Shown piece after piece: positions 2,084 to 33,662 of a DNA stretch of 64,000 nucleotides. This stretch comes from an uncultured Sunxiuqinia sp. (GTDB taxonomy: Bacteria > Bacteroidota > Bacteroidia > Bacteroidales > Prolixibacteraceae). The stretch's first letter is position 1. The number at the start of each line of letters is the position of its first letter. Under the pieces are notes generated by a model. The model did no database searches and had not been told where the DNA came from. It was given only the letters and a program-made list of their open reading frames with translations. The position numbers and the translations under genes were made by a program. Location of the stretch: the NCBI RefSeq assembly GCF_963678245.1, contig NZ_OY782776.1, forward strand, positions 434,001-498,000. The letters are read 5' to 3'.

Positions 2084-2101
2084 CTACATAAAAAACAAAC
2101 T

Positions 2102-2959: not shown

Positions 2960-2970
2960 AATTAAAGTAT

Positions 2971-4101: not shown

Positions 4102-4123
4102 TCAGCAAACTAAACGTGGATAA

Positions 4124-4264: not shown

Positions 4265-4273
4265 TTAAAAAAG

Positions 4274-5515: not shown

Positions 5516-5583
5516 TTATCGATGGAAAACGAAGATAAACCAGAAGGGATTTTACTCCCATTTATACCATAACCGATTTTATT

Positions 5584-6252
5584 ATGAAAAAAAATATCAA
5601 AAAGTTCAGTTTGTTATTTGTTGCCGTATTAATTTTCGCAACCAACATTGCTTTTGCTCAATATGATCCTGAAGTAAAATGGGGACCATCAATCGCTAAT
5701 TATGAACACAAGGATTCTATTGCGATGCCTGAACCGGGTGGAATTCTTTTACTGGGAAGCTCTTCATTTACCATTTGGCAAGATGTTCAGGATTATTTCC
5801 CGGACAAAAACATTGTGAATCGCGGTTTCGGCGGTGCACAAATGAGCGATATCCTTCACTTTAAAGAACGCTTGATTTTGCCATACAAACCCAGCCAGAT
5901 TGTTGTATTTGTTGGAGGTAATGATTTAGCGGCAGGCGATGATCCGAAAACGATCTTCAGGGAAGGTAAAGAACTGGTGAAATGGACAAGAAAACAGTTT
6001 CCGGATGTGCAATTTTCATTTTTATCAATGAAACCGAGTCCCAAAAGGTGGGAGCTAAAAAATGATATGCTGGAACTAAATAATATGCTCATTAAACGCG
6101 CCAGAAAAAAATATATTGATTACATCGATATCTGGAATCCGATGCTGGTTAACGGTGAGCCGGTGAAGGAAAATTATTTAGACGATTTACTTCACCTGAA
6201 CAGCATGGGGTATAAAATTTGGCAAAACGCCATGAATCCTTACCTGAAATAA
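5584..6252 (+). CDS. SGNH/GDSL-type hydrolase
   Basis: The 222-residue protein has a signal peptide cleaved after a residue string ending IAFA. The SGNH blocks are present: block I GSSSF with the nucleophilic Ser, block II Gly in RGFGGA, block III GGND, and block V DLLHLNSMGY with catalytic Asp and His. Such enzymes are acetyl-esterases or platelet-activating-factor acetylhydrolase-like proteins, and in polysaccharide loci they usually deacetylate oligosaccharides. The protein is the usual length for a single domain. It sits between the DUF6786-like gene and the sulfatase, 36 bp before the latter. Confidence 0.88.
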   Translation: MKKNIKKFSLLFVAVLIFATNIAFAQYDPEVKWGPSIANYEHKDSIAMPEPGGILLLGSSSFTIWQDVQDYFPDKNIVNRGFGGAQMSDILHFKERLILPYKPSQIVVFVGGNDLAAGDDPKTIFREGKELVKWTRKQFPDVQFSFLSMKPSPKRWELKNDMLELNNMLIKRARKKYIDYIDIWNPMLVNGEPVKENYLDDLLHLNSMGYKIWQNAMNPYLK

Positions 6253-6288
6253 CTTATACCACTCAATAATCGTAAAAAAACAGTTTCT

Positions 6289-7677: not shown

Positions 7678-7707
7678 ACGAAGAGTTTGATTCTTAAAAA
7701 TATAGAA

Positions 7708-9438: not shown

Positions 9439-9465
9439 TATGTTTGTTTCTAATAAACCTTTACA

Positions 9466-11928
9466 ATGAAACTACTTCGGATTTTTATTTATTTCTTCCT
9501 TGTGATGCTTCAGGTTTCATGCCTTTCGGATAAAGAAGAGCAGGGCGGAAAGCAGATTGCATTTGTTGCCCCGGAAAATAATTCGCGCATGAGGCTTTTT
9601 GATGATGGATGGCGTTTTTCAAAAACAGACGGTGAAGCAGCAGTTTTGCCCGGTTTTGATGACAGCTCCTGGAGAAAGCTTGATTTACCGCATGATTGGA
9701 GTATTGAAGATTTGCCCGAGGGAGAAGGAGTTGTTGGGCCATTTTCAAAAGAAAGCCCTGGAGGAATGTCAACTGGTTACACCATTGGAGGAACGGGTAT
9801 TTATCGAAAAACATTTAGCATTTCAGAAGAAGACGTCAACAAAATCTTCACTATTTATTTTGATGGCGTATACATGGAATCTGATGTATGGATTAATGGA
9901 CAACATCTGGGTTTTCACCCAAACGGATATACCCCATTTTATTATGAAATGACCGACTATTTGAATATTCCGGGAGATAACGTTTTGGTGGTGCGAGCCA
10001 GGAATATTGGAGAAAACAGCCGTTGGTATTCCGGTTCCGGTATTTACAGACATGTTTGGCTTCGGGTAACTGATCAAGCTAATATTCCGGTTTGGGGCGT
10101 TAAACTTACTACTTCAAATGCTAACAAGGAATTGGCTACGATCCATTCAGAAATAAAAGTTGATAATCTTTCACAGACTGATATTGATGTAAAACTAAAG
10201 AATTCAGTGTACTTTAGAGATCAGTTTACAGGAATTACTAAAGAGACAGAGGTCTCGGTTTCTGATAAATCACAACAAACAATAAGCTCTGACATTACAA
10301 TAAGTTCACCCAGGCTTTGGTCCTTAGAATTTCCGAATCTATATACTTTGAAAACAGAGATTATTCAGGATGAACGAGTAATTGATGTCGTTGAAACCAA
10401 GTTTGGTATTCGAACATTGGAATTCTCACCAGTAAAGGGATTTTTACTAAACGGAGAGTCTGTAATTCTAAAAGGAGGATGTCTCCATCACGACAATGGT
10501 ATTCTTGGAGCAGCAACTTTTGATCGGGCAGAACAGCGCCGGGTTGAACTAATGAAAGCCAATGGTTTTAACGCCATTCGTACCAGCCACAATCCTCCAT
10601 CACAACAGTTTTTAGATGCTTGCGACCGATTGGGAATTTTGGTTATGGATGAAGCTTTTGACCGTTGGGAACATCCCAAAAGACCAAATGATTATCACCG
10701 CTTTTTTAAGGAATGGTCAAAAAAGGATATTCAAAGTATGGTGCTTCGCGACCAGAATCATCCGTCCATTTTTGCATGGAGTTACGGAAATGAGATATAC
10801 GAGCGGGCAGATACTTCCGGCATTCGCATTGCAAAACAACTAATTGCTGCAATAAAGGAAGTTGATACCAGCATACCAGTTACCCAGGCTATTTGTGGTT
10901 TTTGGGAATTTAAGGACAGGCAGCGTCCATGGTCTGATTCAGAACCTGCTTTTGGGTTGATGGACATTCACGGATATAACTATAAGTGGCAAGAATATGA
11001 AAACGATCATGCTCAATTCCCGGAGCGCGTCATGGTTGGTACAGAGTCATTTGCCATGGAAATGTATGAGAATTACCAAATGGCTGTTAATAATCCGTAC
11101 GTGATTGGCGATTTTGTATGGACCGGAATGGATTATCTGGGAGAAGCAGGTATCGGGCAGGCATCGCTGGATTCAGTTAATATGGCTTATCCTTGGTTTA
11201 ATGGTTATTGTGGTGATATTGATCTGATTGGGTTTAAGAAACCCCAGTCGTATTACCGTGATTTGGTTTGGGGAAGAAGTCAACTGGAGATTGCTGTTGA
11301 AGCACCTGCACCGGAAGGACATAAATGGGTAATTAGTGCGTGGGGCTGGCGTAATGAATTGCCAAGCTGGAATTGGTCTGGACAGGAAGGTAAATCATTG
11401 GATGTATATGTTTATTCGCAGGCTGAAAAAGTTGAGCTTAAACTGAATGAGAATCTTATTGACACACAATTGTCAACCGATACATCAAAATATGTATTCC
11501 ATTTTAAAGTTCCTTATGAGAAAGGAAAACTTAAAGCATTAGCATATTCTGGTGAAAAATTGATTGCTGAGAAGTCAATTGAAACAACCGGAAAAGCGTC
11601 ACAAATAAAGCTTATCCCTGAACGACAAACTGTCACTTCTAATAAAAATGACTTGGCATATATTCAGGTTCAACTGGTTGATGAAGATGGTCTGTTAGTA
11701 ATGAACGACGATCAAATTGTACACTTTACGGTTGTGGGTGATGCCCAGATACAAGCCGTTGGAAACGGGAACCCGAAAGATATGAAAAGCTTTCAGTCCG
11801 GCAGTTGTATGACTTATTTAGGTCGATGTATGGCAATTATACGGCCAGAGGGAAGAGAGGGGAAATTAACTGTTACTGCCAAATCCAAATCTCTCGAATC
11901 TGATGGAATTGACGTAATGATGAAGTAG
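9466..11928 (+). CDS. GH2 beta-galactosidase-like enzyme with DUF4982 and Ig-like C-terminus
   Basis: The 820-residue lipoprotein (lipobox LQVSC) has the full GH2 architecture: sugar-binding domain (FDDGWRF, LPHDWSIED), immunoglobulin-like domain, TIM barrel, then DUF4982 and a C-terminal GH2_C5/Ig-like domain. The acid/base is Glu443 in YGNEIY and the nucleophile is Glu527 in VGTESF. Members with this layout are annotated as beta-galactosidases, but some are beta-glucuronidases or act on other beta-glycosides. It is the second of three GH2 genes in the window and follows the GH43 gene by 27 bp, so they are probably co-transcribed. Confidence 0.92.
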   Translation: MKLLRIFIYFFLVMLQVSCLSDKEEQGGKQIAFVAPENNSRMRLFDDGWRFSKTDGEAAVLPGFDDSSWRKLDLPHDWSIEDLPEGEGVVGPFSKESPGGMSTGYTIGGTGIYRKTFSISEEDVNKIFTIYFDGVYMESDVWINGQHLGFHPNGYTPFYYEMTDYLNIPGDNVLVVRARNIGENSRWYSGSGIYRHVWLRVTDQANIPVWGVKLTTSNANKELATIHSEIKVDNLSQTDIDVKLKNSVYFRDQFTGITKETEVSVSDKSQQTISSDITISSPRLWSLEFPNLYTLKTEIIQDERVIDVVETKFGIRTLEFSPVKGFLLNGESVILKGGCLHHDNGILGAATFDRAEQRRVELMKANGFNAIRTSHNPPSQQFLDACDRLGILVMDEAFDRWEHPKRPNDYHRFFKEWSKKDIQSMVLRDQNHPSIFAWSYGNEIYERADTSGIRIAKQLIAAIKEVDTSIPVTQAICGFWEFKDRQRPWSDSEPAFGLMDIHGYNYKWQEYENDHAQFPERVMVGTESFAMEMYENYQMAVNNPYVIGDFVWTGMDYLGEAGIGQASLDSVNMAYPWFNGYCGDIDLIGFKKPQSYYRDLVWGRSQLEIAVEAPAPEGHKWVISAWGWRNELPSWNWSGQEGKSLDVYVYSQAEKVELKLNENLIDTQLSTDTSKYVFHFKVPYEKGKLKALAYSGEKLIAEKSIETTGKASQIKLIPERQTVTSNKNDLAYIQVQLVDEDGLLVMNDDQIVHFTVVGDAQIQAVGNGNPKDMKSFQSGSCMTYLGRCMAIIRPEGREGKLTVTAKSKSLESDGIDVMMK

Positions 11929-11971
11929 AAATTATTGTTTTAAAATAAATTCAAAGAAAAAAAAAGAGTAT

Positions 11972-13207
11972 ATGGAGATTAACATTAAAGGACTTTTTCA
12001 AAAAGTACTATTTGTAGCTTTTATCGGGATATTCACCTTGAATGCAAGTTGTACTGATAAAAAGAAAAGAGATATTGAGCAGGTTATTAATGATGCGTTA
12101 AATAAATCAGTAAGTCAGAGTCTTTTGATGGCCGAGAAATATGCAGATCAACCTCTGGTTTTGCCAAGGTCGTACATTGATGGAGAAATGACTACCTCTG
12201 ATTATGGCTGGTGGTGCAGTGGTTTTTTCCCTGGGGTGTTATGGTACTTATATGAGGATAGAGGTGACGAAGATTTGCTAAAATACGCCAAACAATATAC
12301 AGCAAGAATAGAAGATGCCAAGTACATGACAAGTAATCACGATGTTGGGTTTATGTTGTATTGCAGTTATGGAAATGGCTTGCGAATAACTGGAGATACC
12401 ACCTATAACGAAGTTCTTCTAACAGGAGCTAAATCGTTATCAGAGCGTTACCACGAAAATATGGGATTAATTAAATCGTGGGATTTTAATGAAAAAATCT
12501 GGCAATATCCCGTGATTATAGATAATATGATGAACCTGGAATTGTTGTTGTGGGCATCGAAGACTTCAGGTGATAGTACATTTAAGCATATTTCGGTATC
12601 GCATGCTGATAAAACAATGAGTAATCATTATCGTCCGGACTATAGTTGTTATCACGTGGTGTCGTACGATACCATTACTACTGAGCCGCATAAAAAACAA
12701 ACGTTTCAGGGGTATAGCGATGAGTCATCCTGGAGTAGAGGACAGGCTTGGGGATTATACGGCTTTACTTATATGTACCGCGAAACGAAAGAGAAAAGAT
12801 ACTTGGATCAGGCTAACCGGATAGCATCTTATTTACTGAATCATCCAAATATGCCAAAGGATTATATTCCCTATTGGGATTTTGATGCTCCCAACATTCC
12901 AAACGAAGAGCGTGATGCATCTGCAGGGGCATTGATTGCTTCAGCATTAATCGAGTTAAGCAGTTATGTCGAAAAGGATGCCGCTGATAAGTATTTGACT
13001 GTTGCAGAAAAGCAGATTCGGACACTGGCTTCGGATGAATATACCGCGAAAGTGGGAGAAAACGGCAATTTTATTCTGATGCACAGTGTTGGCTCCAAAC
13101 CTCACAACTCCGAAGTTGATGTCCCGTTGACTTATGCCGACTACTATTATGTAGAGGCGCTTGTGAGGTATAAAAAAATGATGGAGAAAACAGCTCAAGA
13201 TAAATAA
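11972..13207 (+). CDS. GH88 unsaturated glucuronyl hydrolase
   Basis: The 411-residue lipoprotein (lipobox LNASC) is an (alpha/alpha)6-barrel protein with the GH88 landmarks: WCSGFFPG, Asp124 in SNHDVGF, Asp184 in IIDNMMNLE (the two catalytic aspartates of the family), and DESSWSRGQAWGLYG. GH88 hydrolyses the 4,5-unsaturated uronic acid left at the non-reducing end after polysaccharide lyase cleavage, by hydration of the double bond. Its presence therefore implies a uronic-acid substrate and a lyase elsewhere, since no PL gene is in this window. It lies between GH2 and GH3 genes. Confidence 0.92.
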   Translation: MEINIKGLFQKVLFVAFIGIFTLNASCTDKKKRDIEQVINDALNKSVSQSLLMAEKYADQPLVLPRSYIDGEMTTSDYGWWCSGFFPGVLWYLYEDRGDEDLLKYAKQYTARIEDAKYMTSNHDVGFMLYCSYGNGLRITGDTTYNEVLLTGAKSLSERYHENMGLIKSWDFNEKIWQYPVIIDNMMNLELLLWASKTSGDSTFKHISVSHADKTMSNHYRPDYSCYHVVSYDTITTEPHKKQTFQGYSDESSWSRGQAWGLYGFTYMYRETKEKRYLDQANRIASYLLNHPNMPKDYIPYWDFDAPNIPNEERDASAGALIASALIELSSYVEKDAADKYLTVAEKQIRTLASDEYTAKVGENGNFILMHSVGSKPHNSEVDVPLTYADYYYVEALVRYKKMMEKTAQDK

Positions 13208-13278
13208 TAAGCTTGGTAAATATGGGAGACATAGGTTAGTCCCAAGTTTATAAATATAAAACAACTAAAATAATATCA

Positions 13279-15555
13279 ATGTTTAAGAATATATTTTCGG
13301 CTATTATAATCATTGACCTTGTTATCATCAGTTCATCAGCAATCATGGCGAAAGGGGATGATGTTCCGAATAAAGTAGAAGATTTGATATCGAGAATGAC
13401 CTTGGAAGAAAAAGTTGGTCAATTACAACAGTATTCGAGTCGATGGGCAATGACAGGCCCTGTTCCTGATGGAGCGGTGGCGCAAGAAATGTATCAAAAC
13501 ATAAAAGATGGATTGGCCGGTTCTATGTTGAATATAGCTGGGACTGAAGCCACCCGAAAAGCGCAAGAGATAGCAGTGAATAACAGTAGGCTTGGAATTC
13601 CTATGATTTTTGGATTTGATGTTGTTCATGGATATAAAACCATATTTCCAATTCCGTTGGCTGCGGCTGCGAGTTGGGATGTTGAAGCTGTAAGAACCAG
13701 TGCGAGTGTTGCAGCAAAAGAGGCTGCCGCTGATGGTTTGCATTGGACTTTTGCTCCAATGGTTGACATTTCGCGCGACGCACGTTGGGGACGTGTAATG
13801 GAAGGCGCAGGCGAAGATCCTTATTTAGGATCTGTTATGGCAAAGGCTCAAGTTGAAGGTTTTCAAGGCGGAGATTTAGCTAATGAAACTACCATCGCCG
13901 CATGTGCCAAGCATTTTGCAGCCTATGGCTTTGTTGAAGGTGGTCGCGACTATAACATAGCTGATATTGGAGAGTCAACACTGAGAAATGTCGTTCTTCC
14001 TCCTTTTAAAGCATGCGCAGATGCGGGAGTTGCTACATTTATGAACTCGTTTAATGAAGTTGATGGAGTACCAGCGACTGGCAATGCTCATTTACTGAGA
14101 GATGTTTTAAAAGGCGAATGGGAATTCGACGGCTTTGTTGTTTCTGACTGGGCTTCGATTGATGAAATGCGTTTTCATGGAGTGGCTGCCAATAAAAGTG
14201 AAGCCGCCCTTTTAGCGATCACAGCAGGTTCTGACATGGATATGGAAGGACATTGCTATTTCCCAAAACTTATTGAAATGGTCGAAAGTGGAGAGGTCGA
14301 TGAGGCATTGGTTGATGATGCAGTTCGGCGAATTCTGACCATTAAATTCAGGTTAGGCTTGTTTGATGATCCATACCGATACTGTAATCAAAATATCGAA
14401 GAGGTTTTCCTTAGCGCTGAAAACCTTGAAAAAGTCCGTGATGTGGCTCGAAAAAGCATTGTTTTACTAAAAAATGAAAATCAATTACTGCCTTTAAGCA
14501 AAGAAAATAAGAAAATTGCGGTTATCGGCGATCTGGCCGATGACAAAGACACTCCCTTGGGAAACTGGAGAGGAAAGGGCGGACGAAATGTGGCGGTTTC
14601 TCTGCTGGAAGGGATTCAGGATGCGGTGGGAAACAAGGATCTTGTAACTTTTGAACGGGGGCCTGTTTTTGCAGAAAACCTGCCTAAATTTTCAACTCTG
14701 GTACAAATTAATGAAACAGATCGAACGGGAATAACCGAAGCAATAGAAGCTGCTCAAGACGCAGATGCGGTTGTGTTGGCCTTAGGTGAAAACTGCTTCC
14801 AGTCCGGCGAGGCAAGAAGTCAGTCCGAAATTGGCTTAAAAGGTCTTCAGCAGGAGTTGCTCGAGGCCGTTTGTGCCGTGAATAGAAATGTTGTCGTTGT
14901 ATTAATGAATGGTCGGCCGATGGCTATTAGTTGGATGGCAGAGCATATTCCGGCTATCGTCGAGTCCTGGCATTTAGGATCGGAAGCAGGAAATGCAATT
15001 GCAGACGTTTTATTCGGAGATTATAATCCTTCGGGAAAACTCCCAATGTCCTTTCCTCGCTCTGTTGGGCAATGTCCGATATACTACAATCATAAAAACA
15101 CGGGTCGTCCGGCAGAGAGTGAAGAAGATTATATGTTTACGACCAGGTATGTCGACGAAAAAGTTAGTCCACTATTTCCATTTGGCTACGGACTTAGCTA
15201 TACAACTTTCGACTACTCAGGACTGGAACTAAGTGATCAGGATATAAAGAAGGGCGATACACTGAAAATTGCAGTTAAATTGAAGAATACAGGAGCAATG
15301 GATGGAGCTGAAGTGGTTCAGCTTTATATTAGAGATTTGGTTGGAAGTGTGACTCGACCGATAAAAGAGCTTAAGGATTTCAAAAAGGTCTTTCTAAAGT
15401 CAGGAGAGACAAAAAGAATTGAATTTGAATTAACAGCAGATGATTTGACATTCTATACTAAAAAAGGAATTTGGGAAACTGAACCTGGAGAATTTCATTT
15501 ATGGGTGGGAACAAACTCACAGCAAGGACTCCAAACTAAATTCTATTTGAAGTAA
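13279..15555 (+). CDS. GH3 beta-glucosidase/xylosidase (BglX-like)
   Basis: The 758-residue protein has a signal peptide and the standard GH3 layout: an N-terminal (beta/alpha)8 barrel, an alpha/beta sandwich, and a C-terminal fibronectin type III-like domain (about 660-755, with KNTGAMDGAEVVQLYI). The nucleophile is Asp290 in VVSDWAS. Other landmarks are KHFAAYG, MNSFNEVDG and PFGYGLSYT. Family members remove terminal beta-glucose or beta-xylose; BglX-type is the closest description. A terminator-like hairpin lies 10 bp after its stop codon. Confidence 0.93.
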   Translation: MFKNIFSAIIIIDLVIISSSAIMAKGDDVPNKVEDLISRMTLEEKVGQLQQYSSRWAMTGPVPDGAVAQEMYQNIKDGLAGSMLNIAGTEATRKAQEIAVNNSRLGIPMIFGFDVVHGYKTIFPIPLAAAASWDVEAVRTSASVAAKEAAADGLHWTFAPMVDISRDARWGRVMEGAGEDPYLGSVMAKAQVEGFQGGDLANETTIAACAKHFAAYGFVEGGRDYNIADIGESTLRNVVLPPFKACADAGVATFMNSFNEVDGVPATGNAHLLRDVLKGEWEFDGFVVSDWASIDEMRFHGVAANKSEAALLAITAGSDMDMEGHCYFPKLIEMVESGEVDEALVDDAVRRILTIKFRLGLFDDPYRYCNQNIEEVFLSAENLEKVRDVARKSIVLLKNENQLLPLSKENKKIAVIGDLADDKDTPLGNWRGKGGRNVAVSLLEGIQDAVGNKDLVTFERGPVFAENLPKFSTLVQINETDRTGITEAIEAAQDADAVVLALGENCFQSGEARSQSEIGLKGLQQELLEAVCAVNRNVVVVLMNGRPMAISWMAEHIPAIVESWHLGSEAGNAIADVLFGDYNPSGKLPMSFPRSVGQCPIYYNHKNTGRPAESEEDYMFTTRYVDEKVSPLFPFGYGLSYTTFDYSGLELSDQDIKKGDTLKIAVKLKNTGAMDGAEVVQLYIRDLVGSVTRPIKELKDFKKVFLKSGETKRIEFELTADDLTFYTKKGIWETEPGEFHLWVGTNSQQGLQTKFYLK

Positions 15556-15564
15556 ATCGAAATG

Positions 15565-15590
15565 GATCAGATTAATAATCTGATCTTTTG
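15565..15590 (+). terminator. Intrinsic terminator-like hairpin after GH3
   Basis: A perfect 9-bp stem (GATCAGATT / AATCTGATC) with loop AAT is followed by TTTT. It sits just past the GH3 stop codon and could end the transcript or reduce read-through into the FAD oxidoreductase gene 80 bp further on. Confidence 0.6.
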
Positions 15591-15670
15591 GTTGTGATGT
15601 ATAGTGTTAGGTTTTTGATAAGTGAATCTTATATATGGAATAGGAGTGATAATTCCAATAAAATAATTTA

Positions 15671-17332
15671 ATGAAAATGAATTGGATGAAAAGGCTTTTT
15701 TCAATACTATTTTTACGTTTTTCTGTTGTTCTATTTCTAATGCTGGGATTGTCCTCATGCCAACGGGCTGAAAACGGCAACGAGGCTGATATCATCGTTT
15801 ATGGTGGAACTTCTTCCGGATTGGCCGCAGCGATACAGGCAACGCGAATGGGGAAGTCTGTTATCGTTCTTGAACCATCCTCCAGAATGGGGGGGCTGAC
15901 AACTGGTGGGCTAGGCCAGACCGATATCGGTAAAAAACAGGCAATTGGAGGTATTGCGAGAGAATTTTATCAGAATATTCGACAACATTACGACAATCCG
16001 GATAACTGGAAATGGCAGGATCGGTCGGAATATAAAGATGGAGGACAAACCAAAACTGAGGAAAACGAGGATGCGATGTGGACCTTTGAGCCTTCAGCGG
16101 CTTTAAGTGTATTTCAGCAGATGGTAAACTCAGAAAATATTGATATTCGCTATAATCAACGGCTCGATCTGAATGAAGGAGTTGTGAAAGAACATGGAAT
16201 GATTGTATCGATCGCCATGGATAATGGTGAAGTGTTTCAAGGAAATATGTTTATTGATGCAACCTACGAAGGCGATCTGATGGCAAAAGCAGGAGTGTCT
16301 TATACCTTTGGGCGGGAAAGTGTCAAACAGTATGGCGAATCTTTAAATGGCGTACAAACTGAACGAGCGACACATCATCAATTTAAGGATGGCGTTGATC
16401 CTTATGTTCGAAAAGGAGATCCAGAGAGCGGACTGTTGAAAAATGTTTTTAAAGAAGCTGGACAAGAAGGCAGTGCCGACAAAAAAATTCAGGCTTATTG
16501 TTTCCGGATGTGTTTAACTGATGTGCCGGAAAATCGAATTCCGGTTGAGAAACCGACTGCTTACGATGAGCAAGAGTATGAGCTTTTGTTTCGAGCTTTC
16601 GAAAACACCGATTTATGGCCTCTGTTTATCATGTCTAAAATGCCAAACGGAAAAACGGATTCGAATAATTATGGCTGTTTTTCATCAGATTATATCGGAA
16701 TGAATTACGACTATCCTGAAGGAGACTATGAGACCAGAGAGGCAATTATTAATGCGCATAAAAACTATACGCTGGGATTATTGTGGACTTTGGCCAATCA
16801 TCCGCGTATTCCTCAAAAAATAAGAGACGAATATAAAAAATGGGGGTTGCCAAAAGATGAATACATTGAAACAGAGAATTGGTCGCCACAATTATACATT
16901 CGTGAAGCCCGCCGTATGGTTAGCGACTATGTGATGACGCAACATCATTGTACTCAGGATTCGATTTCCGCAGATATGTCAATTGGTCTTGGAGCATATA
17001 CGATGGATTCTCACAATGTCCAACGATATGTTACAAATGACGGTTTTGTAAAAAATGAAGGGAATATAGAAGTTGGAGGTTTTGGCTCCTATCCAATTGA
17101 TTACCGTTCAATTGTTCCTTCAAAAGAGGAATGTCGTAATCTGCTTGTGCCTGTTTGTTTAAGTGCAACGCATATTGCTTTTGGTTCTATCAGAATGGAA
17201 CCTGTTTTTATGGTATTGGGGCAGTCTGCTGCAACAGCTGCTAGTTTGGCGATTGACAGTCAGGTGAGTGTTCAGGAGGTCGAATATCGTCAGTTAAGAA
17301 AAAGATTGGTCGACGATAAACAGCGGCTTTGA
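15671..17332 (+). CDS. FAD-dependent oxidoreductase (PF12831-like)
   Basis: The 553-residue lipoprotein (signal with lipobox LSSC) starts its mature part with a dinucleotide-binding fold, ADIIVYGGTSSGLAAAI, then VIVLEPSSRMGG and GGLGQTD, the pattern of FAD-dependent oxidoreductases of the PF12831 group. A second FAD-contact region is FIDATYEGDLMAKAGV, and the C-terminus has MEPVFMVLGQSAATAA. Such secreted flavoproteins are common in Bacteroidota polysaccharide loci, sometimes labelled xanthan-lyase-like, but their reaction is mostly unknown. It is the last intact gene before the decayed junction at 17.3-18.5 kb. Confidence 0.85.
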   Translation: MKMNWMKRLFSILFLRFSVVLFLMLGLSSCQRAENGNEADIIVYGGTSSGLAAAIQATRMGKSVIVLEPSSRMGGLTTGGLGQTDIGKKQAIGGIAREFYQNIRQHYDNPDNWKWQDRSEYKDGGQTKTEENEDAMWTFEPSAALSVFQQMVNSENIDIRYNQRLDLNEGVVKEHGMIVSIAMDNGEVFQGNMFIDATYEGDLMAKAGVSYTFGRESVKQYGESLNGVQTERATHHQFKDGVDPYVRKGDPESGLLKNVFKEAGQEGSADKKIQAYCFRMCLTDVPENRIPVEKPTAYDEQEYELLFRAFENTDLWPLFIMSKMPNGKTDSNNYGCFSSDYIGMNYDYPEGDYETREAIINAHKNYTLGLLWTLANHPRIPQKIRDEYKKWGLPKDEYIETENWSPQLYIREARRMVSDYVMTQHHCTQDSISADMSIGLGAYTMDSHNVQRYVTNDGFVKNEGNIEVGGFGSYPIDYRSIVPSKEECRNLLVPVCLSATHIAFGSIRMEPVFMVLGQSAATAASLAIDSQVSVQEVEYRQLRKRLVDDKQRL

Positions 17333-17342
17333 TAGTGTGAAT

Positions 17343-17520
17343 TTATTTGAATCCCAACTGAATTACAGCTGACCGCTTTCTGTAAATTTCCGAAGATTCT
17401 CCTGTTTCTTTTCGAAAAAGATGATGAAAATTACTGGGGCTTTCAGTGCTGTATTCGACGGCGTCCACCGTAGCCCTACTGTTTCTAATAAATTGGCAAT
17501 TTGTTGGATGATGGACTTTA
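17343..17520 (-). pseudogene. Remnant of an AraC-family regulator (C-terminal HTH)
   Basis: On the minus strand, the frame ending in TAA at 17343 reads EYSTESPSNFHHLF, then RKETGESSEIYRKR. This matches the second helix-turn-helix of AraC/XylS proteins (GYSSPSNFSRVFKKETG..PSEYRK). The preceding piece, IANLLETVG, lies in another frame just upstream, so there is a frameshift and no start. The remnant overlaps nothing else and stops just before the tmRNA-type terminator. Confidence 0.5.
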
Positions 17521-17522
17521 AA

Positions 17523-17556
17523 TAAAAAGCCCTCCGTCGCTATAGCTCTGGAGGGC
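17523..17556 (-). terminator. Intrinsic terminator downstream of the ssrA 3' fragment
   Basis: On the minus strand the stem GCCCTCC / GGAGGGC (7 bp, 14-base loop) is followed by TTTTT. It lies 4 bp after the 3' end of the tmRNA-like fragment, which is exactly where an ssrA terminator is expected. Confidence 0.75.
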
Positions 17557-17560
17557 GAAT

Positions 17561-17582
17561 GTGGAGCTGCCGGGAATCGAAC
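17561..17582 (-). other. ssrA: tmRNA (ssrA) 3'-end fragment, probable att site
   Basis: The minus strand reads GTTCGATTCCC then GGCAGCTCCAC, 22 bp. The T-loop (TTCGATT) plus the acceptor half CAGCTCC and AC tail match the 3' end of tmRNA, whose acceptor starts GGGGCTG and ends CAGCTCCACCA. The T-stem partner upstream is absent, so this is only the last part of the gene. Duplicated 3' ends of ssrA are a well-known att core left by tyrosine-recombinase elements. The intact gene is not in the window. A tRNA gene with the same acceptor is the alternative source. Confidence 0.65.
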
Positions 17583-17812
17583 AATACTTTCTTTTTAGTT
17601 GTAATTCAGTGAATTATAGTTGGCGGTTTTTCCTTGTTAACCGATTTGTTCACCAGCTTGATTTTTTTCATAAAATTTGACTGCTTTTAGTATGGTTTGA
17701 ATATCTCTCTATACCTATTTTCTCTCTATTTTATTTCAAGTTCAGTCAATGCACTAAATTCTTTTTCTCTAGCTCTTTTTGAGATAACGCCATTATTTTG
17801 ATCCAAAAAACC

Positions 17813-18180
17813 TTACCAGAAGGGCAATCTTTTTATCAGGTATTTCAAGTGTTTTTTTGCCAAGGTATGATGAATTAAATACCGGTGGGGTCTTCCGTTT
17901 CCATCTTCAAATGGATGGATGAAAACAAATTCAAAAGCAATAATGGAACCCTCCAACACAGTATCGAATTCATTTTCTACTAGCAGGTTGTTTGTTCCTA
18001 TTGAGCCATTATTCAGTGATTCAATATCTTTCCATTTTGCTGAGATATGTTCTGGTAAAGTTTCTTCTGTGGTTTTGTTATGTTCATCTACAAAACCACC
18101 CTTTTTGTAAAATCCCATCTCTATAGATAGGGTATCTTCGATTACGATGTTGTATCTTTTTTTTGATTTTTGGTAATCAA
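17813..18180 (-). pseudogene. Fic-domain protein remnant
   Basis: The minus-strand frame carries the Fic core HPFEDGNGRPHRY (HxFx(D/E)GNGRxxR) and, before it, DTLSIEMGFYKKGGF and NNLLVENEFD, typical of the C-terminal part of Fic/DOC proteins. The frame is open upstream of the ATG at 18118 (DYQKSKKRYNIVIED), yet there is no real N-terminus, and after YLIHHTLAKK the sequence becomes KYLIKRLPFW and stops, where a longer helical domain is expected. Fic proteins transfer AMP or related groups to target proteins. The motif is preserved, but the gene is truncated at both ends. Confidence 0.7.
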
Positions 18181-18214
18181 TTGAATATCAATAATGAAAA
18201 AAATAATCAAATAA

Positions 18215-18446
18215 TGTTTTGGATAGTATCCTTTGTCTGCAACTAATTTCCCGAAGATTTTGTCATGAAAGTTTTAGTTTTTCAGCGGCTCACGATCGTC
18301 CAAATTGCCGTGAGTAAAGAGAAAATCAAGAATTTTTCCTTTATCATTGATTACAATGTGCAGTTTGAACCCGAAGAACCACCCAATCGAGCATTGGTCC
18401 TTCGCAGCCAAATGAAAAAGGGCATATTTGAAAACCTCATGGTCAG
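18215..18446 (-). pseudogene. IS982-family-like transposase remnant
   Basis: The minus strand translates to IGWFFGFKLHIVINDKGKI, HGNLDDREPLKN, a stop at about 18274, then NFHDKIFGKLVADKGYYPK. This is the DDE-domain core of IS982-type transposases (GWFYGFKLH..INDKGE..DDR.P..GKL.GDKGY). Neither terminal inverted repeats nor the ends of the transposase are visible, and the frame has an internal stop, so the element is dead. A small plus-strand open frame over the same bases is only its shadow. Confidence 0.65.
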
Positions 18447-18721
18447 GATGGTAAATACACCGACATTAATGCAAAAACAAATAATTGCTTAAATGCCTAA
18501 TTCAATCAGATTTTATCATGAAACAATATAGTGCTTTGATTATTAGTGTAATACTGCCTTTAGGGAAGCTGTCGGTTGTTTTTATAACGATAAATCTTCA
18601 TATTTGGTGCACTTTTATAATAATATCGTAAAACGAATTAGAGGGAGAACTAAATCACTTTTGTACTATTTTTGTTTTGTGTATCACTTTTCAATGTGAA
18701 AGTGAAAATAAATAATAATTG

Positions 18722-19324
18722 ATGGCCTATCTCAATAATAATATTGATAAGGAGTGTTGGGAGAGTTTTATAGAAGGCGAAGAAAATGCTTTTTCTTCGA
18801 TTTATAGAAAAAGTATGGATGACTTGTATTCCTACGGCCTAAGCAAAACCTCATATACTGATATTATTGAAGATACTATTCAGGATGTTTTTATTACTCT
18901 TTTTAACAAAAGGCATCTGTTAGATCCATCGCAAAATTTACAAGCCTACCTTTTTAGATCCTTTCGAAATATGCTTATTGAGCGTTTACGCGAACGATCC
19001 CGCAAAGAAGAGTTTGTTTATAAACATGCAACAGTTGATGCCGAATCAGCTCTTGAAAATATAGAGGACGCTATTATTCGAACCGAAGAAAGTGACAAGT
19101 ATTTTAAGCTTATCTCAAAGTGCATGGCTTCACTGTCTGATCGGCAACGAGAAGCCGTTTATTTGAAATATACCAGCGGCTATAGCTACGAAGATATCTC
19201 TGAAATTCTCGAAATAGATGTTGCTTCTTCGCGCACATTAATCTATCGGAGCATAAAAAAAATAAGAGAGTTGTTAGGGCGAGAGGTGATCGTCTTTTTC
19301 CTCTTTATAAAAAAAATCCAATAA
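18722..19324 (+). CDS. ECF-type RNA polymerase sigma factor
   Basis: The ATG at 18722 is chosen over the TTG directly before it, giving 200 residues. Region 2 is seen as FSSIYRKSMDDLYSYG to RSFRNMLIERLR (about 20-85) and region 4 as SLSDRQREAVYLKYTSGYSYEDISEILEID (about 138-170), the layout of sigma-70 ECF factors of the Bacteroidota SusC/D-linked type. It is followed at 111 bp by its FecR-type anti-sigma factor, then SusC with an STN domain. The expected role is to switch on this locus when the receptor signals substrate binding. Upstream I saw a TATTTTTG at 18667 but no matching -33 element. Confidence 0.93.
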   Translation: MAYLNNNIDKECWESFIEGEENAFSSIYRKSMDDLYSYGLSKTSYTDIIEDTIQDVFITLFNKRHLLDPSQNLQAYLFRSFRNMLIERLRERSRKEEFVYKHATVDAESALENIEDAIIRTEESDKYFKLISKCMASLSDRQREAVYLKYTSGYSYEDISEILEIDVASSRTLIYRSIKKIRELLGREVIVFFLFIKKIQ

Positions 19325-19434
19325 TTTATTCTTGATATTATCTGATTTATAGTGCTTTATATAGAGAGTAGTTTTTTTTCTTCTTTTTTTGTCTATAAAG
19401 TTGTACCAACACCGTAAGTAAGATAAATAGACCA

Positions 19435-20658
19435 ATGAGATTAAAGGGAAAAATAGTGTTTGAAGAATTAATCCAGGATGATCAGTTTGTCCTGGATATT
19501 TCAGATGCAAGAACATCTGGAGAATCAATATCAGAATTAATCAGCCAACATCCTGAACAGAAAGACGTAATCTTGTTGGCAGTTGAGTTTATAAGGTTTA
19601 ATAATTCTCAACAGAAAAATGTTTCCTACCAATATCGCGAAGAACTGCTTTCTTCAATCCTTAAGGAGATAAATAGTAGTACCGTTAAACCTTTGAAAAA
19701 ACGTAAACTTTATCGACTGAATGCTCTGTCTCGAATAGCAGCTATTGCAATTATCCTGCTTTCGGTTGGTTATTGGGGGTATGTTGAGTACAACAAAGAT
19801 ATCTTCGAGGATTTTAAGCAAACATTAAGTGAGAATTATATTGAAGAAGGCAGTTCTAAACTGATCATGTCTGATGGTTCGGAATATATCTTGGACGATG
19901 AACATTCGGAAGTAATATATAAAGACAATGGCAAAAAGATTCTTATCAATACAGAAGAAGGAGATAAAGTACTCCTAAATACAAGCGAAAAAGTAAAATT
20001 CAACCAGTTGGTTGTTCCTTTTGGAAAAATGCAAAGGTTGTTGTTGAGTGATGGCTCTTCGGTAGTCGTTAATTCTGGAAGTAAGTTAATTTACCCTGCC
20101 GAGTTCAGTGGAAATTCACGAAAAGTTTTTCTTGAAGGTGAGGCTTTCTTTAAGGTGACGAAACGCGAAGATAGAATGCCCTTTTTAGTTGAAACAGAAA
20201 ATATCGACATTAAGGTGTTGGGTACTGAGTTTAATGTCTCGGCTTACGCTAGCGACAAAGAGATTTCTACAATATTGGTCACCGGGAAAGTTGAGGTATC
20301 ACAAAAAAATAGATTATTAAACAATCCTGAATTTGTTTTAAGCCCGGGGCAGGCATGTTTTTACAGTGTCAATGAAGAATCTTCGTTAGTAAAAGAAGTA
20401 GATACAGAAAATTATGTGGCCTGGATGAAAGGGTACCTTAAGTTTGAAGATCAAACGCTTGAAAATATTGTTCGAAAATTGAAGCGGTATTATAACCGCG
20501 AAATCATAATAGAAGACGAGCAATTTGCCAATATTATTATCTCCGGAAAATTCGCTCTTTCTGAAGATTTCAATTCTGTTTTGTATAACCTGAGCAAGCT
20601 GTTAAAAACCAACATAACGACTGATGGAAACGATGTAGTAATTATTAACCAAAAATAA
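19435..20658 (+). CDS. FecR-type anti-sigma factor
   Basis: The 407-residue protein has an N-terminal cytoplasmic part that would hold the sigma factor, one transmembrane helix (AAIAIILLSVGYWGYV, about residues 101-117), a periplasmic FecR domain (SDGSEYILDD, VVPFGKMQRLLLSDG, VEVSQ) and a C-terminal DUF4974 domain (YLKFEDQTLENIVRKLKRYY, about 325-407). It transmits occupancy of the outer-membrane SusC partner to the sigma factor encoded just upstream. Order and spacing match trans-envelope signalling loci of Bacteroidota. Confidence 0.93.
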   Translation: MRLKGKIVFEELIQDDQFVLDISDARTSGESISELISQHPEQKDVILLAVEFIRFNNSQQKNVSYQYREELLSSILKEINSSTVKPLKKRKLYRLNALSRIAAIAIILLSVGYWGYVEYNKDIFEDFKQTLSENYIEEGSSKLIMSDGSEYILDDEHSEVIYKDNGKKILINTEEGDKVLLNTSEKVKFNQLVVPFGKMQRLLLSDGSSVVVNSGSKLIYPAEFSGNSRKVFLEGEAFFKVTKREDRMPFLVETENIDIKVLGTEFNVSAYASDKEISTILVTGKVEVSQKNRLLNNPEFVLSPGQACFYSVNEESSLVKEVDTENYVAWMKGYLKFEDQTLENIVRKLKRYYNREIIIEDEQFANIIISGKFALSEDFNSVLYNLSKLLKTNITTDGNDVVIINQK

Positions 20659-20699
20659 GAAGATATGATAGAAAACACTAATTGAACCTAGAAAAGAAA

Positions 20700-20727
20700 A
20701 CCGGCAGATGTTGGCGCATCCACCGGT
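20700..20727 (+). promoter_or_regulatory. Stem-loop between fecR and susC
   Basis: ACCGG / CCGGT (outer 5 bp), a symmetric CA/CA internal loop, then GATG / CATC with loop TTGGCG form a compact hairpin 50 bp ahead of susC. No U-run follows, so it is not an intrinsic terminator. A processing or mRNA-stability element that uncouples susC expression from the regulators is the likely role (inference). Confidence 0.5.
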
Positions 20728-20776
20728 AAATTCTGTGATTAAAATGAATGTCTAATATTTTAACCATTACAAATTT

Positions 20777-23700
20777 ATGAAAAAAAAATTGAATGGATGG
20801 AGGAGTTACAGCTCCTTCATTAAAATCCTTTGGGTAATGAAACTAACTATACTGATAATTTTTGTTTCTCTTGTTAGTGTTTCTGCCTCCACGTATTCGC
20901 AAAGCACAAAGTTTACTGTTAATGCAAAAGATGCATCAATTCTTGAAATTTTTGAAGATATTGAAGTTCAGAGTGAATTTGTGTTCGTATATCAAAATGA
21001 GACATTAGATAACAACAACAGGTACAACATCGATTTAAAAAACTTGACCGTTGATGAGATTCTTGAGATTTTACTAAAGGATTCAGGTACAACTTATGAA
21101 ATCAATGATCGGCAGGTAATCATTACGACCAAAGATAGTATTCCGGCAAAAAGAAGCAACCCGGATTCAGGAAAAGGAGATGTCGATCAGCCCAAAAGAC
21201 TAACGGGGACAGTCGCAAATAAAGATGGTGAACCGATTCCTGGTGTAACAGTTTTTATCAAAGGAACAACGCAAGGAACAATTACCGATCTGGATGGAAA
21301 TTTTTCAATTGCAGATGTACCTGAAGATGCGATACTCTCAGTTTCATTTATTGGGCTGAAGTCTCAGGAGATTTCAGTTGCCGGAAAGAATAACTTCAAG
21401 ATAACCATGCAAGAAGATACAGTTGGCATTGAAGAAGTTGTGGCAATTGGTTATGGTGTTATAAAAAAGTCTGATTTAACAGGCTCAACAACATCTGTTA
21501 ATGCTGATGATTTCAATAATGGGGCAATTATGGCTCCTGAACAGTTGATGCAAGGTAAAGTATCAGGCGTAAACATCACATTAAACAGTGGTGAACCGGG
21601 TGCAAACTCTGTTGTGCGTATCCGTGGTGGCACCTCCATTACGGCAGGTAATGATCCGTTGTATGTAATTGATGGTTTCCCTGTGGCGTTTTCAAGTGCG
21701 AGTTTTGAAAAAGCCGACGAAGATAGGATGCCATCATTAGCGAGCAATCCACTTAATATGATTAATCCTTCTGATATTAAGTCGATCGACATTTTAAAAG
21801 ATGCTTCGGCCACTGCTATTTATGGCTCTCGCGGAGCAAATGGTGTGATTTTAATTACGACTAAAAGCGGACAAAAAGGGAAAAGTCGTATTGAGTATGA
21901 TTCGTATGTATCGGTTTCTTCAGTTCGTAAAAAGATTGATTTACTTAGTGCTGACGAGTTTCGGAATTATCTGAATGCGAATCAAAATACGATTGGCGAT
22001 TGGGACGATGGTGGTGCAAGTACCGATTGGCAAGACGAAATTTTCAGAACAGCACTTTCTCATTCTCATAATTTTGCCTTGATTGGGGGAGGTGAAAAGA
22101 CAAATTACCGTGCTTCTTTAAATTATACCAATCAGGAAGGAATCATTATTTCTTCCGGGCTGGAAAAGATTGTTGGAAGAATCAACGTCAATCATAAAAC
22201 ATTAAATGATCGACTTTCTGTTGGTGTTAACCTGACCAATGCAATGCTCACCAATGATAATTCAGCAAATACAGAATCAGCCAAAGGTGATTTAACTGGT
22301 GGCGTAATTCGTGACGCATTACGTTATAATCCAACCTTTCCTGTAAAAAATAGCGAAGGAGAATACACTTTCCGTTCTGTTTTTAATCAAAACCCGGTAG
22401 AACAAGCCGAGATGATTGATGATGACACGGAAACTTTCCGTTCATTAGGCAATGTGACAATAGACTATAAAATCACGAATGATTTAAGTTTCAATGGAAA
22501 TGCTGGTTTTACTAAAGAGTTTGTTGAACGAATGTATTATGCTCCAAAGGCCAGTAAAATTGGTGAACCATTTGGAGGACGAGCTTCACATGAAACACGA
22601 AATAATATCTCAAAATTATTGGAAACCAACCTTAAATATAATAAGCAATTTAAGGAAAAACACACAATCGATGCATTGCTGGGATATTCGTATCAGGATT
22701 TTAATTACCGAGGAACTTTCGTTCGTACGGAAAAGTTTATTTCAGATGCAACTTCGTATAATAATTTGGATGGAGGCTTGGTTTACGAACAACCAAGTAG
22801 TTATCGGTCGGGTAACCGCCTGATTTCATTTTATGGAAGATTAAACTACAACTACGATAACCGTTACCTTATAACAGGATCATTAAGAAGAGATGGTTCT
22901 TCGCGTTTTGGTGACAACAATAAATGGGGACTTTTCCCTTCGGCAGCACTTGCATGGAGAATTATTGAGGAAGATTTTATGAGTTCGTTGGAAAATGTGA
23001 GTAACTTGAAATTGAGATTAGGATATGGTGTTACTGGAAACCAGGAAATAGGAAATTACCTGTCGTTGCCTACATTAAGCGCCGGAACCGATAAATATAT
23101 TTTCGGAGGTCAAGTGGTTACTGCCGTTGGGCCTGATCAGTATTACAACCCCGATTTAAAATGGGAAACAACAGCCCAGGTAAACCTTGGTCTTGACTTT
23201 GGATTTTGGGATAACAAATTGAGTGGTACTATTGATCTTTATAAAAAGACAACCACCGACCTGTTGTTACGATTTAACGTTCCGCAACCTGCCGTAGTAA
23301 ACACAACTGTTGCTAATGTTGGCGAAGTGCAGAATAAAGGATTTGAACTGGAATTAAACGGACTTTTGGTGAATACCGATAAGGTTCGCTGGAACTGGAA
23401 TGCGAATATCAGTCGAAATGTAAATGAAGTGAAGAGTCTTTCAAATGAAACATGGAAAACCGAACGCATTTTTACACAAACAATTCCGGCGCCGGGCTTC
23501 ACTGGTGTGCAAGCACAGATTATTGAGCCTGGAGAGTCAATGGGGAGCTTTTACGGTTATGAGTACATTGGTATTGACGAAAATGGGGTGCAGCAATACG
23601 AAGATTTAAATAATGATGGACAAATCTTGCCTAAAGACGATCGCAAAATAATCGGAAATTACAATCCTGATTTTATTTATGGTTTTGGCTCAACATTGAA

Positions 23701-24100
23701 ATATGGGAGGTTTAACTTTGACGCATCTTTTAGAGGGGCATATGGAATGGATGTTTTGAATGCCACAGGAATGGATATTGAAAGTGTTTCGAAATTGCCT
23801 GGTTTTAATACCACTCATAATGCTATAGAAGAAGGTTTAGCTTATGGCGAAGCCACTATATATTCAAGTAAGTGGGTTCAGGATGCATCTTTCTTGCGCC
23901 TTGAAAACTTAACTGTTGGCTATGATATTGATGTTAATCGGATTGAATGGATTAATAAAGCAAGCATTTACCTTACCGGGCAAAATTTATTCGTTTTAAC
24001 GAAATACGATGGATATGATCCTGAGTTGAGTAACGGATTGGATATGACAAATTATCCGCGCCCTCGGAATATCTTGTTGGGTGTTCGGGTATCATTTTAA
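20777..24100 (+). CDS. SusC/RagA-family TonB-dependent outer-membrane transporter with STN domain
   Basis: The 1107-residue protein has an extended signal peptide, an STN signalling domain (about 45-120, FTVNAKDASILEIFEDI), a carboxypeptidase-D-like regulatory domain (about 140-220, GTVANKDGEPIPGVTV), a TonB plug (VAIGYGVIKKSDLTGS, IRGGTSITAGNDPLYVIDG, ATAIYGSRGANGVILITT) and a C-terminal beta barrel ending in VRVSF. It imports large oligosaccharides together with SusD. The STN domain marks it as a signal-transducing receptor working with the FecR/ECF pair encoded upstream. It is followed by susD after 33 bp. Confidence 0.96.
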   Translation: MKKKLNGWRSYSSFIKILWVMKLTILIIFVSLVSVSASTYSQSTKFTVNAKDASILEIFEDIEVQSEFVFVYQNETLDNNNRYNIDLKNLTVDEILEILLKDSGTTYEINDRQVIITTKDSIPAKRSNPDSGKGDVDQPKRLTGTVANKDGEPIPGVTVFIKGTTQGTITDLDGNFSIADVPEDAILSVSFIGLKSQEISVAGKNNFKITMQEDTVGIEEVVAIGYGVIKKSDLTGSTTSVNADDFNNGAIMAPEQLMQGKVSGVNITLNSGEPGANSVVRIRGGTSITAGNDPLYVIDGFPVAFSSASFEKADEDRMPSLASNPLNMINPSDIKSIDILKDASATAIYGSRGANGVILITTKSGQKGKSRIEYDSYVSVSSVRKKIDLLSADEFRNYLNANQNTIGDWDDGGASTDWQDEIFRTALSHSHNFALIGGGEKTNYRASLNYTNQEGIIISSGLEKIVGRINVNHKTLNDRLSVGVNLTNAMLTNDNSANTESAKGDLTGGVIRDALRYNPTFPVKNSEGEYTFRSVFNQNPVEQAEMIDDDTETFRSLGNVTIDYKITNDLSFNGNAGFTKEFVERMYYAPKASKIGEPFGGRASHETRNNISKLLETNLKYNKQFKEKHTIDALLGYSYQDFNYRGTFVRTEKFISDATSYNNLDGGLVYEQPSSYRSGNRLISFYGRLNYNYDNRYLITGSLRRDGSSRFGDNNKWGLFPSAALAWRIIEEDFMSSLENVSNLKLRLGYGVTGNQEIGNYLSLPTLSAGTDKYIFGGQVVTAVGPDQYYNPDLKWETTAQVNLGLDFGFWDNKLSGTIDLYKKTTTDLLLRFNVPQPAVVNTTVANVGEVQNKGFELELNGLLVNTDKVRWNWNANISRNVNEVKSLSNETWKTERIFTQTIPAPGFTGVQAQIIEPGESMGSFYGYEYIGIDENGVQQYEDLNNDGQILPKDDRKIIGNYNPDFIYGFGSTLKYGRFNFDASFRGAYGMDVLNATGMDIESVSKLPGFNTTHNAIEEGLAYGEATIYSSKWVQDASFLRLENLTVGYDIDVNRIEWINKASIYLTGQNLFVLTKYDGYDPELSNGLDMTNYPRPRNILLGVRVSF

Positions 24101-24133
24101 TTTGCCAATAATAGAAAAATTAGATTTTGAATT

Positions 24134-25645
24134 ATGAAAAAAATAAAAATAATATTATCCGTTTTCGTATTGTTTATTGGTTCGGCTTGCACCGATCTTG
24201 ACGAGACTTTATATGATCGTTTGGGTGCAGGCAACTTCTTTCAAAATGAAGAAGAAATAAAGGCAGGTTTGGCCAATGTGTATTACCGTTTAATGGCCTC
24301 GCATAACTGGCTGTTTGCTTGGCAATTGCAGGAAGTTACGACTGATCACGGCGAAGTTCCGACACGGAATAATGGTGGTTGGTACGACGGAGGAAAATAC
24401 ATCACCGCAACTACACATACCTGGGACGCCACGCAAGAAACAGTTAATAACGTATATAGTGGATTGTATTGGACAATTGCAGCAACAAATACATTTATAG
24501 AAACCATTCAGGTAGCTCAAAAAGATATCGACGGATTGGAACCAATTGAAGCAGAAGTGAGGGCAATTAGAGCTTGGAGTTATTATGAACTTTGCGACTA
24601 TTATGGCAATGTACCTTTAGTCACTGTTTCGAAACTGGATCAGCAAAATCTACCAACCAACAGCACACGTTTGGCCGTGTTTAATTTTATTGAGGAAGAG
24701 TTGCTTGCAGCTGCCGAAGTCCTGCCATCTGTGAATGATGTGAGTCGTTCAGATTATTATCCACGTATTTCAAAAGAAACGGTTTGGGCGATGCTGGCTC
24801 GCTTGTATTTAAATGCAAAAGTTTACTCCGGTACAGCACGTTGGGAAGATTGTATTGATATTTGTGATAAAATTATTAGTTCAGAAGCTTTTCAACTGAC
24901 ACCAAGTATTTGGGATAGTTTTGTCCCCGAGAATGAAGATTCTCCTGAAATTATTTTCGGTATCTCTTATAGCAATAAAGATATTACAAATGGTTCAACA
25001 GGAAGTAACTACATTAATCAATTAGGTCTACATCCGCTATTGCAGCAAAAATACGACTTGCCTTTTACACCATGGGGAGGTCCGCGGGTAGGAGGAGATC
25101 ATTACAAAATTTATGATGATGCTGATTTCCGAAAATCACTTATTTTGTCAGGAAAACAATATTCTTCCAGTGGCGAATTCTTATTCGAAATTCTTCCTTT
25201 GGAACATATGAACAATGCTCATCCAGACGAAGGCCTTATTAGTGTGAAATATGTTCCCGATCCGGAACAAATTGGCGTTTCTGGGCGGAATGACTTGGTG
25301 ATGATCCGATATGCCGAAATTCTTTTAAATAAAGCTGAGGCAATATTACGTTTAGGGGGAAGTGAGAGTGATGCCGTTGATCTTGTTAACGAGGTGAGAG
25401 AAAGAAACTTTACACCATATGTTCCATTAACATCGATTACTCTTGATGAAATTTTAGAGGAAAGATCGCGCGAGTTTTTGTGGGAATGTAACTATCGCAC
25501 CGATTTAATTCGTTATAACAAATTCTTGAGTAACACGTATAAATTTAAACCCGAACCAACTACAGAATCTTTTCGGACTGTCTTCCCGATACCGCAAAGC
25601 GAGTTGGAGTCAAATCCAAACCTGGTTCAGAATCCAGGATATTAA
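24134..25645 (+). CDS. SusD/RagB-family surface glycan-binding lipoprotein
   Basis: The 503-residue lipoprotein (lipobox IGSAC) contains the tetratricopeptide-rich SusD fold: an N-terminal AGNFFQNEEEIKAGLANVYY block, ELCDYYGNVPLVT, WAMLARLYLNAKVY, and the C-terminal VNEVRERNF and ERSREFLWECNYRTDLIRYNKF blocks typical of the family. It caps the SusC barrel and binds the glycan on the cell surface. A strong hairpin with a T-run follows its stop, separating the SusCD part from the downstream enzymes. Confidence 0.95.
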   Translation: MKKIKIILSVFVLFIGSACTDLDETLYDRLGAGNFFQNEEEIKAGLANVYYRLMASHNWLFAWQLQEVTTDHGEVPTRNNGGWYDGGKYITATTHTWDATQETVNNVYSGLYWTIAATNTFIETIQVAQKDIDGLEPIEAEVRAIRAWSYYELCDYYGNVPLVTVSKLDQQNLPTNSTRLAVFNFIEEELLAAAEVLPSVNDVSRSDYYPRISKETVWAMLARLYLNAKVYSGTARWEDCIDICDKIISSEAFQLTPSIWDSFVPENEDSPEIIFGISYSNKDITNGSTGSNYINQLGLHPLLQQKYDLPFTPWGGPRVGGDHYKIYDDADFRKSLILSGKQYSSSGEFLFEILPLEHMNNAHPDEGLISVKYVPDPEQIGVSGRNDLVMIRYAEILLNKAEAILRLGGSESDAVDLVNEVRERNFTPYVPLTSITLDEILEERSREFLWECNYRTDLIRYNKFLSNTYKFKPEPTTESFRTVFPIPQSELESNPNLVQNPGY

Positions 25646-28409: not shown

Positions 28410-28455
28410 ATACGAGATATATCAAGAGAGAAACCAATAAAAACAATTCTGACAT

Positions 28456-30060: not shown

Positions 30061-30171
30061 TAGTTTTTTCTGCCAGTAAACAGTTTCTAAGTTTTTTAGG
30101 AAATAATATACGATTAACGAATTGAATCGAGGAACTTAGTAGTTCCATTTTAACTGACAATAAAATTCAAG

Positions 30172-31539: not shown

Positions 31540-31599
31540 ATTTTTACTTTTTTTGGTTGAAGTAAGATTATCAAAATATCTGTTTCTCAAATTTTAGTT

Positions 31600-33546: not shown

Positions 33547-33662
33547 TATTAAAGAAAACTGGCGGAATATTTTTTATTTAAGCATTAACTTCCCAGATGT
33601 GAGTTGGTAAGCTTTTTATACATCTTTGTTTTTGAATTGAGAAAGACTATATTAAACTTAAT

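Follow-up and report, generated by a model that had tools for sequence, protein, structure and literature searches.

A copy of the ssrA 3' end beside a polysaccharide locus of an uncultured Sunxiuqinia: probable relic of a displaced ssrA island

A stretch of 64,000 nucleotides from an uncultured Sunxiuqinia species (the window; it lies on contig C10 of an 11-contig genome totalling 4,872,389 bases) contains, between two polysaccharide loci, a short piece that resembles the end of the tmRNA gene ssrA. The piece raises the question of whether an element integrated at this place and brought a polysaccharide locus with it, as the sequence-only reading had proposed, or whether an ssrA end formed elsewhere was moved here. 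We regard the second answer as the better one. The feature would be the right end (attR) of a former tyrosine-integrase element of ssrA, parted from its left end by a later rearrangement, and we give this reading a probability of about 0.62. The features of the window are as follows.

119–17332, plus strand: left-hand polysaccharide locus, in a context shared with contig C8 of the relative G003
17346–17462, minus strand: 3' fragment of an AraC-family regulator gene (last 39 amino acids), 72% identical to residues 249–287 of the whole 287-residue AraC of G003
17463–17519, minus strand: remaining native downstream flank of ssrA, cut off after the first half of a second hairpin motif, GGGCTACGGTGGACGC; in L138 and L139 a whole motif of this kind is present downstream of the ssrA core
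17520–17556, minus strand: predicted native ssrA terminator (hairpin 17529–17556, T-run 17520–17528), assigned by folding and by like hairpins after ssrA
17561–17582, minus strand: core, 22 bp that repeat the ssrA 3' end (T arm in part, acceptor half, AC) and are identical to C1:439200–439221
17635–17654, minus strand: arm-like repeat GGTGAACAAATCGGTTAACA, 52 bp before the core, found in the same place at two right ends of G003 and at two int2-type left ends
17696–18181, minus strand: Fic-domain gene remnant in several pieces, same sense as the core, at most 73% identical to the intact Fic of the G003 ssrA element
18151–18465, minus strand: IS transposase remnant (DDE_Tnp_1_3)
18719–25645, plus strand: start of the right-hand polysaccharide locus, with ECF sigma factor, FecR, SusC-like and SusD-like genes
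26373–41659, plus strand: enzyme genes of the right-hand locus (GH42, GH31, apiosidase-like, esterase, alpha-L-rhamnosidase, GH2 and others)

The core, its terminator and the element side

The minus strand from 17582 to 17561 reads GTTCGATTCCCGGCAGCTCCAC, and this is the sole such site in the window at up to three mismatches. The form of an ssrA 3' end had been noticed in these 22 bp from the letters alone, and all 22 equal the end of the intact ssrA gene of the same genome. A genome-wide search placed that gene at C1:438824–439223 (tag GENNYALAA; the sole match to the tmRNA model above the family cut-off), where it ends in the same 22 bp at C1:439200–439221. In the window, ARAGORN found no tRNA or tmRNA gene, and Rfam reported no family at its gathering score in the scar region or elsewhere in the window. 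Therefore, no other part of ssrA was found there, as had been stated earlier, and a complete tmRNA gene in the window was rejected. The observation of the scar is thus confirmed. An ssrA or tRNA lacking the 22 bp, or relatives with the same fragment and no island, had been named as findings that would speak against the proposed integration; the 22 bp are common to the scar and ssrA, and none of the six genus relatives shows the fragment at this place.

The GC hairpin and T-run that follow the core (17529–17556 and 17520–17528) fold with −17.0 kcal/mol (z −4.07), and one of 200 shuffled sequences folded as well. A like hairpin stands directly 3' of the complete ssrA in L150, a metagenome-assembled genome named Bacteroidetes bacterium RI_134, and also 3' of the ssrA 3' ends in L138 and L147, in both of which the sequence examined ends within ssrA and ARAGORN named no tmRNA. 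These sequences came from a pattern search with 18 matches, 12 of which fell within unrelated sequence and were discounted as chance matches; the six of use are L134, L135, L138, L139, L147 and L150. The second motif, GGGCTTCGGTGGATGCAATCCACC or alike, follows further downstream in L138 and L139, and the window keeps its first half, stopping at the junction with the araC fragment. Within this genus, only this genome and the third core of G003 showed the native hairpin, and other sequences come directly after ssrA in G001, G002, G004 and G006. In another genus of the same family (g2), nine genomes have a two-mismatch match to core plus hairpin. Judged from these sequences, the hairpin of the scar is the native ssrA terminator, and the proposal that the original terminator was kept agrees with this.

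Two further genomes, G039 and G040 (stretches L027 and L029), have a second ssrA core with hairpin 106–107 bp after the ssrA core, and because of this arrangement the hairpin was considered as part of a small mobile unit. The idea was dropped in view of L150, L138 and L147, where the hairpin comes straight after ssrA, which is complete in L150 and represented by its 3' end in the other two. In G039, a frame starting MYYVYILKCSDN (read by eye) comes after the second core and hairpin, and we take it to be like the start of a GIY-YIG nuclease.

The minus-strand order of fic remnant, arm-like repeat, core and native terminator puts the element to the right of the scar, on the side that had been predicted. 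The arm-like repeat precedes the CARCTCC motif by 63–65 bp in the window and at cores 2 and 3 of G003; at the int2-type left ends, in G003 as well as in the present genome, it follows the core by 102–104 bp. The pattern was derived from the very sites at which it was then found; shuffled patterns gave 0.45 matches per pattern at up to four mismatches in six sources. It is missing at three of the six right ends examined, those of element 1 of this genome (see below), Mangrovibacterium marinum and G001 (best 8, 8 and 9 mismatches), which by this sequence mark are right ends of another kind. Fic-domain genes of roughly 510 residues adjoin ssrA or an ssrA core in this genome, G002 and M. marinum (L016:15417–16949, L058:16584–18122 and L063:18266–19792).

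The ssrA arrays of this genome and its relatives

A tyrosine integrase had been expected beside the intact ssrA, and an intact copy of 430 residues begins at C1:439457, about 235 bp downstream, with three Pfam integrase domains (arm-binding, SAM-like and catalytic). It belongs to a 23-kb element (element 1) with restriction-modification-like genes, assigned by eye, and a fic gene that adjoins a second core at C1:462203–462224. A broken integrase of the int2 type follows at about C1:462.5 kb. With up to three mismatches, a 21-bp core pattern has three sites in the whole genome, namely ssrA, C1:462204–462224 and the scar; a third core on C1 was not found in this search, and the reversed pattern gave no match genome-wide. 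At up to six mismatches, no further core was found in 727,732 bases of this genome, the scope to which the exclusion of cores with four or more mismatches applies. Two sites at tRNA 3' ends appeared there, one of which (L015) was called a tRNA by its likeness to the tRNA-Pro of L060 and L063. Weak matches to the tmRNA model, below the cut-off, occur elsewhere in the genome (L002–L007), three of them on C4 at a spacing of 157 bp. The C1 stretches sampled for tRNAs, as a sign of core chromosome, contained one tRNA-Arg, near C1:922 kb. When C1:462–481.9 kb was compared with five relatives (E 1e-30), G003 matched in its integrase and core stretch and otherwise in short repeats of up to about 300 bp only, and G001 gave one 173-bp attR match.

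Integration at ssrA would rebuild the gene on the integrase side, and its former last 22 bp, together with the former terminator, would end up at the opposite end of the element. The order of fic remnant, arm-like repeat, core and native terminator at the scar points to such a pushed-out end. For a tandem pair of elements, three cores are expected, with the native terminator after the last. The array beside ssrA consists of a core, element 1 with its intact integrase, a core, and the left end of an int2-type second element with its broken integrase. The third core of this genome, with the native terminator, is the scar; therefore, by type and count, the scar is likely to be the missing right end of the int2-type element. 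The two ends lie on different contigs, and their link, drawn from the same type and count, is likely. A later rearrangement would have split the right end from the left, with one breakpoint cutting araC beside the left-hand polysaccharide locus, and the right-hand locus probably moved along as cargo of the island. The feature is now a relic, with no adjacent integrase, a broken fic gene and no partner core in the nearby stretches examined.

G003 is the closest of the six genus relatives by the genes adjacent to ssrA, with four of five proteins 95–97% identical and one 80%. Its array begins with ssrA at C38:76.8 kb, a broken int2-type integrase, an intact fic gene, the arm-like repeat and a decayed core 2. 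Next come an int1-type left end, whose integrase is broken, then a polysaccharide locus, a fic remnant and the arm-like repeat, and the array ends in a decayed core 3 with a like terminator at C38:122.1 kb. The cores 2 and 3 have five and six mismatches. This right end (fic remnant, arm, decayed core and like hairpin) thus stands 45 kb downstream of its own ssrA in the same orientation, and it aligns with window 17524–17848 over 0.3 kb at 68%. In M. marinum, ssrA and the distal core both have CATCTCC, not CAGCTCC, and the distal core is therefore the old end of its own ssrA; a fic gene makes up nearly all the DNA between the two. G001 has ssrA at C46:12.5 kb and a two-mismatch core at C46:32.07 kb, followed by int1-type left-end sequence and not by the native terminator. 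In G002, a fic gene and a gene of 738 residues come after ssrA, with one sulfatase-like gene about 10 kb further on; in G004 the 738-residue gene stands alone, and in G005 the contig is short.

The genes beside core 3 of G003 lie at C1:314–321 kb in this genome in the opposite orientation, and this part of the chromosome was therefore reshuffled between the two species. In the five other relatives, too, the met genes beside core 3 do not share a contig with ssrA, so that either order may be ancestral.

The left junction and the competing explanations

On the left, about 98 bp of native ssrA flank directly abut the araC cut, and the junction lies within 17458–17463. The left-hand polysaccharide locus is conserved in G003 in blocks of 79–88% identity (C8:60–103 kb), where the whole araC (287 residues) is kept beside it, and the DNA homology ends at window 17456–17458. 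No core was found near the matching place in 52 kb of G003 C8 at up to six mismatches, apart from one unlike site 39 kb away. G003 C8 is not a clean empty site, since it has the whole araC and no core, and the junction is not at a core. A tyrosine integrase does not by itself produce foreign DNA that starts with the ssrA flank instead of the core. Because the foreign DNA begins in this way, we consider that the scar was displaced by a later event and that no integration took place at this site; the transfer of a piece of the ssrA island is more likely. When the rest of araC and its pyruvate-formate-lyase-like neighbours were sought in 727,732 bases of this genome, only the 39-residue araC piece was recovered, and the reciprocal junction was not found in the same bases. 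On G003 C8 there is also another araC copy, whose cut is only a few bases away from that in the window and which continues into different DNA (L122:3340–3570 and 5620–5850, compared with window 17300–17530). The closeness of these two cuts counts against the displaced-attR reading.

The displaced segment may have come ready-made from the ssrA island of a related strain and been joined to araC by illegitimate or IS-aided recombination, with no internal rearrangement. IS transposase remnants adjoin the right-hand locus, and its first 3.3 kb (18719–22000) gave only short matches to like genes in the six genus relatives, both of which would suit a donor strain. However, the count of three cores and the orphan int2-type left end at the ssrA of this genome fit an internal split, and we consider an outside donor unlikely, although it is the strongest competitor of the displaced-attR reading.

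An assembly error, in which the distal end of the ssrA array was misjoined to the left-hand polysaccharide locus, is improbable. In its favour, the genome is a draft of 11 contigs, with the partner ends on different ones. Repeats are the usual site of misjoins, but a 68-bp query from the scar was matched in full at its own place alone, no other of the own-genome matches listed covered the araC fragment, and no second close copy of the junction sequence was seen in this genome.

Integration in place, with the right-hand locus as an ssrA-type island inserted at this site, was the original suggestion. The site has the core, the arm, the fic remnant and the native terminator, and the parts of the right-hand DNA that were compared gave no close match in G003. 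As expected of an ssrA island, the native terminator lies beyond the core, and ssrA with a tyrosine integrase is found at the other end, but on a different contig. The two ends are on C1 and C10 and not on one segment, so that at least about 564 kb separate the scar from ssrA (438.8 kb in the left part of C1 and 125.7 kb in the right part of C10). Integration here also needs an ssrA 3' end as its target, and no other part of ssrA was found; the left border is the cut araC and not a core. The claim that site-specific integration brought the polysaccharide locus to this place is therefore not supported, and this explanation, already largely refuted, is very improbable. Last, an origin of the 22 bp by chance or from a tRNA is practically negligible and was rejected, with 0.00 copies expected in the window (100 shuffles), only ssrA-type sites matching genome-wide at up to three mismatches and no tRNA among the three matches.

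The right-hand locus and known ssrA islands

To the right of the single core of the window come the fic remnant, the transposase remnant, sigma factor, FecR, SusC and SusD. The enzymes of the right-hand locus (26373–41659) may, from their predicted families, point to a pectin-like substrate. In G003, a locus of sigma factor, FecR, SusC and SusD lies between cores 2 and 3, and the fic remnant alone separates the sigma factor from core 3. In G001, sulfatases, SusD, SusC, FecR, the sigma factor and one more sulfatase lie between ssrA and the two-mismatch core. Because polysaccharide loci sit between ssrA cores in these two relatives, it is plausible by analogy that an ssrA island formerly carried the right-hand locus. 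The sigma factor, FecR and SusC of the window and G003 are only about 30% identical; therefore, the two loci differ, at a like position. The DNA-level comparison with relatives covered the window up to 22000 and from 42001 to 62000. Window 42001–62000 (E 1e-40) had no match in G003 or G004 and two matches of about 280 bp in G001, and C10:498–512 kb had none in G003, in a run without positive control. No conjugation gene was found among 38 window proteins in a general, not dedicated, Pfam scan.

Different loci are found at ssrA in three of the seven genomes, G001, G003 and, by inference, this one, and in all three the sigma-factor/SusCD end faces the distal core, with one sulfatase gene between in G001. 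We tentatively suggest, at somewhat less than even odds, that polysaccharide loci dock repeatedly at the ssrA 3' end in this genus of the Mangrovibacterium family and that chromosome rearrangements then carry loci and attR ends elsewhere. If polysaccharide loci do ride at ssrA in this family, the tmRNA gene would offer an easy way to trace swaps of digestion genes. A displaced attR with its native terminator is a readable footprint of both the element side and a later chromosome break.

At tmRNA genes, tyrosine-integrase islands rebuild the gene at attL, leave its old 3' end at attR and have the integrase adjoining ssrA. The layout here is the same, but attR is detached from attL. The scar is a real attR relic of an ssrA island, later displaced, and a single relic of this sort is ordinary in kind. 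Among the matches listed by a literature search for polysaccharide utilization together with tmRNA, no title is on the subject, and the match for Prolixibacteraceae polysaccharide utilization and mobile elements concerns, by its title, another family.

Two known systems are close to the present one. Dehalococcoides has tandem islands at the ssrA 3' end, with a short direct repeat of this end as the boundary of each, and they have a serine recombinase and all their direct repeats within 100 kb downstream of ssrA (PMC3146451). The present case resembles them, as they are described there, in its tandem array, its direct repeats of the ssrA end and, probably, its accessory metabolic genes as cargo. 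It differs in that the integrases are of the tyrosine family, one repeat is on another contig and its flank is cut. In gut Bacteroides, polysaccharide utilization loci are found on integrative conjugative elements (PMC8845570). The association of a polysaccharide locus with an integrative element is common to both, whereas the window showed no conjugation gene among the proteins scanned, the host belongs to the Mangrovibacterium family and the target is ssrA. Tandem islands with ssrA repeats and polysaccharide loci on integrative elements are both already known kinds (PMC3146451, PMC8845570).
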